Below are positions 19,577 to 33,219 of a stretch of DNA of 34,400 nucleotides, one piece after another. Made by a program: the position numbers and the translations under genes. The notes below the pieces were generated by a model. That model saw only the letters and a list, made by a program, of their open reading frames with translations, was not told the origin of the DNA and did not search any database. The DNA is from Defluviitaleaceae bacterium (lineage in GTDB: Bacteria; Bacillota; Clostridia; Lachnospirales; WRAX01). The stretch is taken from the NCBI GenBank assembly GCA_009780485.1, contig WQZZ01000011.1:1-34400 (forward strand). Reading direction: 5' to 3'. Position 1 is the stretch's first letter. Each line of letters begins with the position of its first letter.

Positions 19577-19906
19577 CTACAAACCCAATTCCCAAAGAAC
19601 ATCGTCCCAAATCTCAATCCAAAATGGTGAGTTTACGCAGGCAGTACAAGCCACAATTGTACCGATGGAGAAAAGAATACCTACGATAGACAGGATTAGC
19701 CCTGCGGTAAGTTTGCCACCACGAAAACCCTGCCCCATAGCGACAAAAGCAAGAATAAGCCCTATAATACCAAAAAGAAAACCACCCAAGAAAAAGCTGG
19801 TTAAAAACCCGATAATACCCAAAACGAGGGCGGCGGTTGCAAGACCGTCACCTGGTTGTTTTACGGGTTGCGGAAAAGTTGGTGGTTGTTCAGGAAATTG
19901 ACTCAT
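19577..19906 (-). CDS. DUF4190-like small membrane protein (array copy A)
   Basis: MSQFPEQPPTFPQP...PGDGLATAALVLGIIGFLTS...GFRGGKLTAGLILSIVGIL. Confidence 0.8.
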   Translation of the reverse strand: MSQFPEQPPTFPQPVKQPGDGLATAALVLGIIGFLTSFFLGGFLFGIIGLILAFVAMGQGFRGGKLTAGLILSIVGILFSIGTIVACTACVNSPFWIEIWDDVLWELGL

Positions 19907-19956
19907 ATCTATTCCTCCTAAATTTTAACTATTAAATTCTGATTAAAATCAAGCAA

Positions 19957-19975
19957 GGGTGGAGTTTACCCACCC
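19957..19975 (-). terminator. GC-rich hairpin after array copy B (attenuator or weak terminator)
   Basis: - strand GGGTGGG-TAAAC-TCCACCC region, 7 bp with one G-U; no clean T-tract. Confidence 0.4.
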
Positions 19976-19995
19976 CCGCAAAACAAAAACTACGA

Positions 19996-20292
19996 CTACC
20001 AAGCCGCCAATGAAGCACAGCCGATACACGCAACACAAGCCACAATACCAAGACCCCAAAGACCCACACTAATAAGTGAGCAAATGAAGCCGATTTGTGC
20101 TTTGTTACCTGTGTAACCAGCGTCCAAAGCTTGCTTTCTGAAAATGAAAGAAGCGATTCCCCAAAGAGGGCTAAGAACAAGGGCAAGAATACCGAAAACA
20201 AGGGCTAAAGTTGCCTTGTCGTCCCCTGGTGGTGGACCAGCACCAAATGGAGGGGGTGTTGTTTGGTTTTGTTGGTCTGGAAATTGACTCAT
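19996..20292 (-). CDS. DUF4190-like small membrane protein (array copy B)
   Basis: MSQFPDQQNQTTPPPFGAGPPPGDDKATLALVFGILALVLS...GYTGNKAQIGFICSLISVGL. Confidence 0.78.
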   Translation of the reverse strand: MSQFPDQQNQTTPPPFGAGPPPGDDKATLALVFGILALVLSPLWGIASFIFRKQALDAGYTGNKAQIGFICSLISVGLWGLGIVACVACIGCASLAAW

Positions 20293-20325
20293 AACAAACC
20301 TCCTAAGATTTATGTAATTTTTGGA

Positions 20326-20637
20326 TTACCAAGTATCTAAAATTTCTATGCACATCACACAGCCAAAACAAGCGAAAAGTGGCAGGACGATAAGCGTCCA
20401 AATAGTCAAACCTACGGCAGAGCAGACATAAGCGGCAGTCAACTTTCCGCCTTCAAAACCTTCCTTTTTGGCTTGGCTTGCGAAAATTAGACCAAGTATG
20501 CCAAAAATCGGACCTATAAAGATGCTCAAAATACCCATTACCATTGCGAGGGTCGCTTTTCCATCTCCTGGTGGTGGACCATGACCATAAGGTGGCGGGG
20601 TGTACCCCGAGCTTGGTTGTTGCGGAAATTGGCTCAT
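20326..20637 (-). CDS. DUF4190-like small membrane protein (array copy C)
   Basis: MSQFPQQPSSGYTPPPYGHGPPPGDGKATLAMVMGILSIFIG...GFEGGKLTAAYVCSAVGL. Confidence 0.78.
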   Translation of the reverse strand: MSQFPQQPSSGYTPPPYGHGPPPGDGKATLAMVMGILSIFIGPIFGILGLIFASQAKKEGFEGGKLTAAYVCSAVGLTIWTLIVLPLFACFGCVMCIEILDTW

Positions 20638-20693
20638 AATCTTTTCTCCTTGATTAATTATTATATTTTAATATTTATGTAATAATTTAGATT

Positions 20694-21035
20694 TTACCAC
20701 GCAAATGGCATTGCACATAGCGGGGCAAAAGCACAAAGGAAGCAAGCTGTCCAAAAAGTTAAGCCAAGGGATGCACCGATGATGGAGCAAACCAAGCCAG
20801 CAGTGTTTTTGCCACCTACAAAGCCGTCGTTTTTGGCACTGATAGCCAAAAAGATGCCTACGCCACCAATAACGACCTCTAAATACGGAATAAGCCAGTT
20901 AATCCAGTATACAGCAAGGCATACGATGCCCAAAACAAGGGCGGCGGTCGCCTTTCCGTCACCAGGTTGTATAGGCGGTCTGCTATAGTGGGGTGGCGGG
21001 GTGTATGGGGGTGGTTGTTGGGGATATTGGCTCAT
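20694..21035 (-). CDS. DUF4190-like small membrane protein (array copy D)
   Basis: MSQYPQQPPPYTPPPHYSRPPIQPGDGKATAALVLGIVCLAVY...GFVGGKNTAGLVCSIIGASL. Confidence 0.78.
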   Translation of the reverse strand: MSQYPQQPPPYTPPPHYSRPPIQPGDGKATAALVLGIVCLAVYWINWLIPYLEVVIGGVGIFLAISAKNDGFVGGKNTAGLVCSIIGASLGLTFWTACFLCAFAPLCAMPFAW

Positions 21036-32009: not shown

Positions 32010-32903
32010 TTAGTGTCTATATGTGTAATTTGCCCTATTTTTTATGCAATAAGCCGCATTTTCAACCATCAACTTGAACCCGCATGAATAATATAATTCA
32101 CTTGCATGGGTATTCAGCTTATCGACAATCAAATCAACAGTATCGGTATTATGCTTGTTTAAGGCGTATTCTAAAGTGGCATTAAGCACTGCCCATCCAT
32201 AACCTTTACCACGGGCATTTTCATCAACGCCAAATATTTCCGCCGTGGCATGATTTGGATTGTCGTAAAACTTTAATACCCCATAACCAACAAATGCACC
32301 CTTTTCATCTAAGGCACAGAAAACCTCACGGTCTTTACCTATTGCATCTATTACGCTTTCGGGCAGAATATATGCAACAGGGAAGGTGTCATTAAATATA
32401 CGGATAAATTCGCTCCTAAACCTATCCTCATACATGACCACTGTGTGCTTAATGTCTTGCGGCTTATAATCGGCTTTTTTGAGCAATAAAATATACTCGT
32501 TGTCATTGCGTTCTGCCGATAGTAATTCTGCAAGCTTGTGAAGATTTTCATTCTTCGTGTTAAAGTAGAAGTTAAACCTTACAGCTTGTGTGAACTTAGA
32601 AAAGGAATAATCAAACATTTCTTTTGCCGCTTCTTGGTTCCATTCATCTTTGAAAAACGGTCCAACGCAGTCAACCCAATTATTTTCGGGACTGATGAAG
32701 AATCCGAAAATACCAACCAAAGTATCGCCGTCAAAATATCCCAACATAAGATTATCGGGGTTGCCCATGAGAAAACTAAAATCTCCGTGTATTGAACTTT
32801 TTTCTTTTGGGCAGTACGCACAGTTATTTTCTGGCTGACTATTTCTTAAAAATGCTATTTCCACGCATTGTTGTAGATAGTTAGAGTTAATTTCTCTTAT
32901 CAT
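32010..32903 (-). CDS. GNAT-family N-acetyltransferase (tandem GNAT fold)
   Basis: Acetyl-CoA motif VDENARGKGYGWAVLNATLEYAL; C-terminal ASELYYSCGFKLM; N-terminal half GNAT-like but degenerate. Confidence 0.85.
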   Translation of the reverse strand: MIREINSNYLQQCVEIAFLRNSQPENNCAYCPKEKSSIHGDFSFLMGNPDNLMLGYFDGDTLVGIFGFFISPENNWVDCVGPFFKDEWNQEAAKEMFDYSFSKFTQAVRFNFYFNTKNENLHKLAELLSAERNDNEYILLLKKADYKPQDIKHTVVMYEDRFRSEFIRIFNDTFPVAYILPESVIDAIGKDREVFCALDEKGAFVGYGVLKFYDNPNHATAEIFGVDENARGKGYGWAVLNATLEYALNKHNTDTVDLIVDKLNTHASELYYSCGFKLMVENAAYCIKNRANYTYRH

Positions 32904-32925
32904 ATATGTTTCAACCTCTCTTAAT

Positions 32926-32952
32926 GAGGGTTGCTATTTTCTAGTAACCCTC
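32926..32952 (-). promoter_or_regulatory. Hairpin overlapping the end of a leader ORF, upstream of GNAT
   Basis: - strand GAGGGTTACTA-GAAAA-TAGCAACCCTC, 11-bp arms with one A/C mismatch. The distal arm can alternatively pair with GAGAGGTTG at the GNAT SD. Confidence 0.6.
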
Positions 32953-32996
32953 CATATTCTTTTTGCTTGATTTTTGATTTTTGCAATATTTGCCAT
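32934..32996 (-). CDS. Putative 20-aa leader peptide MANIAKIKNQAKRIWRVTRK
   Basis: ATG at 32996, TAG at 32934-32936, SD AAAGGGGGT 7 nt upstream. Below the ORF track length cutoff. Confidence 0.55.
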   Translation of the reverse strand: MANIAKIKNQAKRIWRVTRK

Positions 32997-33219
32997 TACT
33001 TTGACCCCCTTTCTTCATAGATTTATTATTTCGCCGAGGCGTTATAACCATTGTGTGGCATATCGTACATCAGATAATTATACCATGCCACTATAGCAAT
33101 GTCACGAACAATTTTCCGCATTTTTCCTATTATTAAAAAATCTTATTGATAACAGCCCGAGAATGATTTAGTGGACATGTAGGTTGGTAAGCTCTATCTT
33201 TTTGTTTTTCAAAAAGACC

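Follow-up and report, generated by a model that had tools for sequence, protein, structure and literature searches.

A short leader ORF and competing RNA helices upstream of a GNAT acetyltransferase gene in a Defluviitaleaceae bacterium: a possible three-arm switch of reversed sign

The GNAT gene and its 5' leader

The DNA analysed here, referred to as the window, is a stretch of 34,400 nucleotides from a Defluviitaleaceae bacterium (contig WQZZ01000011.1). It encodes on its minus strand a GNAT-family N-acetyltransferase (Table 1), whose match to this family is confined to the C-terminal half of the protein, the first half being devoid of any Pfam family. Models of resistance enzymes all scored far below their cut-off against this protein, which reads as a generic GNAT.

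Upstream of this gene, a predicted promoter is made of TTGTTC and the -35 box GTGACA (33105-33100), a 17-nt spacer, and an extended -10 element, TGGTATAAT, with TATAAT at 33082-33077. If this near-consensus promoter is used, with a predicted start near 33069, the GNAT transcript would carry a 5' leader of about 165 nt. This leader holds the strong Shine-Dalgarno sequence (SD) and the 20-codon ORF that an earlier note on this DNA had pointed out, both of which were recovered. A short SD-led ORF thus lies directly 5' of GNAT in the same predicted transcript, and this tiny gene is probably translated. Its stop is separated by 30 nt from the GNAT ATG, which is in frame with the UAG, 10 codons apart, a point that had previously gone unnoticed. 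No arrest motif was identified in the leader peptide, and neither Rfam families (at the gathering score) nor tRNAs were matched anywhere in the window.

Table 1. Features of the GNAT locus, in window coordinates
Feature	Coordinates	Strand	Details
Predicted promoter	33077-33111	-	11/12 consensus matches, TG before the -10
Leader-ORF SD, AAAGGGGGT	33012-33004	-	duplex with the anti-SD at -14.9 kcal/mol
20-codon leader ORF, peptide MANIAKIKNQAKRIWRVTRK	32934-32996	-	ATG at 32996, stop UAG at 32936-32934
Arm 1, GAGGGTTACTA	32952-32942	-	within leader codons 15-19
Arm 2, TAGCAACCCTC	32936-32926	-	starts at the leader stop; partner is arm 1 or the GNAT SD
Arm 3, GNAT SD region, GAGAGGTTG	32920-32912	-	forms the arm 2:arm 3 helix
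GNAT-family N-acetyltransferase, 297 aa	32010-32903	-	PF00583, 2.4e-15, residues 170-276

With regard to the promoter, exactly five copies of the element TTGTTCGTGAC-N18/19-TATAAT (with ATGNTATAAT) are present in the family, spread over 4 of its 16 genomes, and the 42 other genomes of the order have none: at the predicted promoter of the window, and at L027 (1511), L036 (1506), L041 (1501), and L045 (minus strand, 1501). What lies behind it is unrelated from site to site: apart from the GNAT leader, the element precedes an ECF sigma factor gene with a DUF4349 protein encoded next, a cysE-like gene, a small ORF located ahead of a ligA-like gene, and a 381-aa ORF of unknown nature. It could represent a regulated promoter specific to this family. 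When the search is relaxed, the matches are ordinary SigA promoters. The ECF sigma factor was considered as the owner of the element and rejected, the orthologs of that sigma gene lacking it. Elsewhere in the window, four adjacent and related small proteins starting with MSQ(F/Y)P (109, 98, 103, and 113 aa; 19577-21035, minus strand) apparently reflect a local tandem expansion.

Two competing helices around the leader stop

As the earlier note had described, arm 1 lies in the last codons of the leader and arm 2 starts at its stop. Computed folding yields an arm 1:arm 2 stem spanning the UAG with an energy of -11.9 kcal/mol (z -5.3), which in the transcribed strand comprises 7 + 3 bp with an A.C mismatch, the 11-bp hairpin announced previously being found on the plus strand only. 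The alternative pairing of arm 2 with the GNAT SD, also proposed at that time, is likewise recovered as a predicted helix of 5 + 3 bp with a bulged A, at -9.6 kcal/mol (z -3.6). Since arm 2 is common to both, the two helices are mutually exclusive.

Read as plus-strand RNA, the segment 32926-32952 forms 11 pairs, including one G.U, at -15.7 kcal/mol. In this context, the palindrome could be a plus-strand terminator or insulator located upstream of the divergent chemoreceptor-like gene, in line with the stability of that stem, its T-rich tail, and its terminator-like score. However, no plus-strand gene runs into the palindrome and the tail, CATATTCTTT, is poor, and such a role is considered most improbable.

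The frequency of these features was evaluated in two ways: the leader was dinucleotide-shuffled 3000 times without altering the GNAT SD, and a sample of about 434 kb of the same genome, made of the window and 20 stretches, was examined at the 200 gene starts preceded by 90 nt or more of free DNA. The resulting figures are indicative only, because the case was picked post hoc and the gene calls are automatic: an ORF with an equally strong SD arose in 1 of the 3000 shuffles, an ORF whose stop carries such a hairpin in 8, and the two together in none, while among the 200 upstream regions 3 hold a mini-ORF with an SD at -12 kcal/mol or better, 7 a hairpin of -10.4 or better at the stop of a mini-ORF, and a single one, namely the GNAT leader, both features. 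The combination of a strongly SD-led ORF with a stop-spanning hairpin is unusual for this genome, beyond chance.

Predicted order of states

Folding was computed for the transcript by equilibrium models, not kinetics, while the ribosome footprint was blocked codon by codon. In the ribosome-free fold, the probability of helix 1:2, P(1:2), amounts to 0.995 and P(2:SD) to 0.004, the nine bases of the SD region being on average 58% unpaired. This default state is kept at five transcript lengths and at both 25 and 37 °C (P(2:SD) of 0.001-0.006, mean unpaired SD of 0.54-0.61), and co-transcriptional folding likewise favours helix 1:2. A ribosome with its P site at codons 1-10 leaves the state unchanged, with P(2:SD) of at most 0.01. 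A ribosome whose P site is at codons 12-17 covers arm 1, whereupon P(2:SD) rises to 0.91-0.998 and the openness of the SD drops to 0.11-0.26. Once the P site has moved to codon 18 or further, up to the stop, it is arm 2 that is covered, P(2:SD) is back to about 0, and the SD is open again. More precisely, openness at codons 18-20 is no higher than the default, and its peak is reached with the ribosome at the stop (0.78, or 0.75-0.88 over variants, versus 0.58 by default), in agreement with the earlier proposal that a terminating ribosome covers arm 2 and exposes the SD. The state order is preserved for footprint edges from +12 to +17 nt, with a shift of about one codon. According to these folds, GNAT should be repressed whenever a ribosome is detained in the second half of the leader, the ribosome-free transcript being on. 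Macrolide arrest at a +X+ motif would act at K6-I7-K8 of the leader; since the footprint there does not reach arm 1, such an arrest is not expected to alter the switch.

The default state of erm and cat/cmlA leaders is a masked SD, which becomes accessible once a ribosome stalls in the leader (PMC8876359, PMC5118997). The same logic, with a drug-stalled ribosome unmasking the GNAT SD, had been put forward for the present locus, whose general layout resembles that of ermC/ermB and cat/cmlA: a short SD-led leader ORF and mutually exclusive helices, one of which contains the downstream SD. However, the default fold of the present leader has an open SD, which is closed by stalls in the range of codons 12-17; openness does not exceed the default for a stall at codons 18-20, and the stop position alone clearly increases it. 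Besides, neither of the two orthologs shares the layout and no resistance model came near its cut-off for GNAT, and classical attenuation of the erm/cat type is therefore regarded as very improbable.

Distribution of the GNAT gene and conservation of the leader

Orthologs of GNAT were searched for with the protein or a profile in roughly 750 genomes, at the family, order, and class level, and by one additional peptide-pattern scan of species-representative contigs. Only two true orthologs were found among these genomes, one with 65% identity in the Defluviitaleaceae MAG contig WRAC01000002.1 (L002/L003) and the other in another family of the same order (L096). The N-terminal motif QPENNCAYCPK is common to the window protein and the L002 ortholog, and reads QNNSAYCPK in L096. 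With 3 of roughly 750 genomes carrying it, and both other genomes of the same genus lacking it, the gene is sporadic, and it appears to move, since its neighbours differ in all three genomes. Neither GNAT nor the leader gave a useful match in viral contigs, plasmids, or phages, the single plasmid match being a GNAT of 22% identity.

The conservation of the leader ORF and helices in relatives, on which the earlier note had made its own reading depend, is missing in the two orthologs available for comparison. In L002, an in-frame TAA precedes the ATG, an SD of its own, AAAAAGGTGGATATATAAATG, lies directly before the GNAT start, the fold of the upstream region is no more stable than those of shuffled sequences (z -0.37), and the small overlapping ORFs are unlike the leader of the window. 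In L096, a terminator-like hairpin 3' of the preceding gene is followed by an SD, with no leader. The L002 sequence also bears on the native start of GNAT: given that leader and gene share one frame interrupted by a single UAG, a read-through fusion was considered as the native start, and it was rejected because the in-frame TAA of L002 stands directly 5' of the same MIR start, which has its own SD.

The leader DNA has no second copy in its own genome, and nothing matching the leader peptide turned up among relatives, plasmids, phages, or the sequences of the PDB. The faint resemblance to the N-terminus of S20 that had been noticed is without support, no match being obtained in Pfam, NCBIfam, or PDB, for which 20 aa make a very short query. 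Inspection of the context of short DNA matches in relatives (L028-L035) revealed no homologous leader; one of them, the near-match AAGAATATGGAGGGTTACTATG in L032, makes the stretch of arm 1 resemble an ordinary ribosome-binding site (RBS). The leader is thus private to its lineage as far as these comparisons indicate, and its absence from the two orthologs is compatible with what may be a recent origin.

A possible reading of these data is that the leader has no selected function, a recently acquired accessory gene having been joined to a captured promoter, an RBS fragment, a chance short ORF, and coincidental hairpins. The sporadic occurrence of GNAT in different neighbourhoods, the restriction of the leader region to a single genome, and the RBS-like appearance of arm 1 are all in its favour. 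The joint occurrence of the features, seen in none of the shuffles and in no other upstream region of the sample, nevertheless speaks against it. On balance, the absence of function is viewed as unlikely, though a serious contender.

Comparison with known systems

Several characterised leaders share parts of this layout. In Salmonella mgtQ-mgtB, helices 1:2 and 3:4 compete with helix 2:3 and translation of the upstream ORF (uORF) promotes mgtB (PMC8092293). As in the window, the uORF overlaps alternative stem-loops that mask or reveal the RBS of the next gene, but the present leader is devoid of a 3:4 helix, so that a ribosome on arm 1 has the opposite effect. In the same line, erm-type leaders have four arms with the SD in the 3:4 helix, whereas the present leader has three with the SD in arm 3, and having one arm fewer than erm or mgtQ reverses the predicted sign. 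In E. coli, toiL pairs with the topAI RBS by default and its first seven residues are conserved; as toiL itself masks this RBS, a stall anywhere in it activates (PMC12121999). The toiL-topAI-yjhQ system resembles the one proposed here in relying on a sensory uORF that, when translated, alters how the downstream RBS is masked, but neither the default uORF:RBS pairing nor the conserved residues are found in the window leader.

Finally, the short ORF-11 and ORF-18 of class 1 integrons carry a canonical initiation region and lie 2-62 bp ahead of the cassette gene (45 bp in the case of ORF-18), a TAG stop being usual for ORF-11 (PMC8876359). The window likewise shows a short ORF with an initiation region upstream of a gene, and a TAG stop, but this leader is not an attI site, the downstream gene has its own SD, and two competing hairpins are present. 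As these integron ORFs boost downstream cassettes, including aac(6') acetyltransferase fusions (PMC8876359), the leader could similarly be a ribosome-loading or coupling device without sensing, which would capture ribosomes close to the start of GNAT, stabilise the mRNA, and feed reinitiation 30 nt further on, the hairpins being incidental. The leader SD is far stronger than that of GNAT in its duplex with the anti-SD (-14.9 versus -9.4 kcal/mol), the distance between stop and start is short, and the GNAT SD is largely open by default, all of which agree with such coupling. Nevertheless, it leaves unexplained both the stable stop-spanning hairpin and the second helix on the SD, and GNAT already has an SD of its own. 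Simple loading is regarded as rather unlikely.

Proposed mechanism

The reading that we tentatively prefer, as a possibility and not as an established function, is that of a translated, lineage-private uORF modulating GNAT translation through a three-arm RNA switch of reversed sign; plain ribosome loading, or the absence of any selected function, is nearly as likely. According to this preferred reading, arm 1 would pair with arm 2 and the GNAT SD would be largely open (on) as long as the leader carries no ribosome, or one that is still near its beginning. A ribosome that lingers while its P site occupies roughly codons 12-17 (K-R-I-W-R-V) would sit on arm 1, leaving arm 2 to pair with the GNAT SD (off). 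Upon arrival at the UAG, the ribosome would cover arm 2, the SD would reopen, and the terminating ribosome, 30 nt from the GNAT start, may reinitiate. Given this state order, slow elongation in the basic/Trp segment would lower GNAT output, while free-running leader translation would sustain it. The more specific version of the model, a recent reversed-sign attenuator of a single lineage in which a putative physiological signal would slow ribosomes in the basic/Trp segment (off) and timely termination would keep the gene on, is doubtful.

Should the leader have no function, it would be an ordinary lineage-specific 5' UTR. If the predicted states hold in cells, it would constitute a compact uORF switch with three arms, responding to stalling in the opposite sense to erm/cat leaders. 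The case also calls for caution, in that a leader ORF together with an SD-covering helix is insufficient to infer antibiotic induction, and the order of states must be computed. If the model is true, how many arms compete would by itself suffice to determine the sign of ribosome-sensing control.
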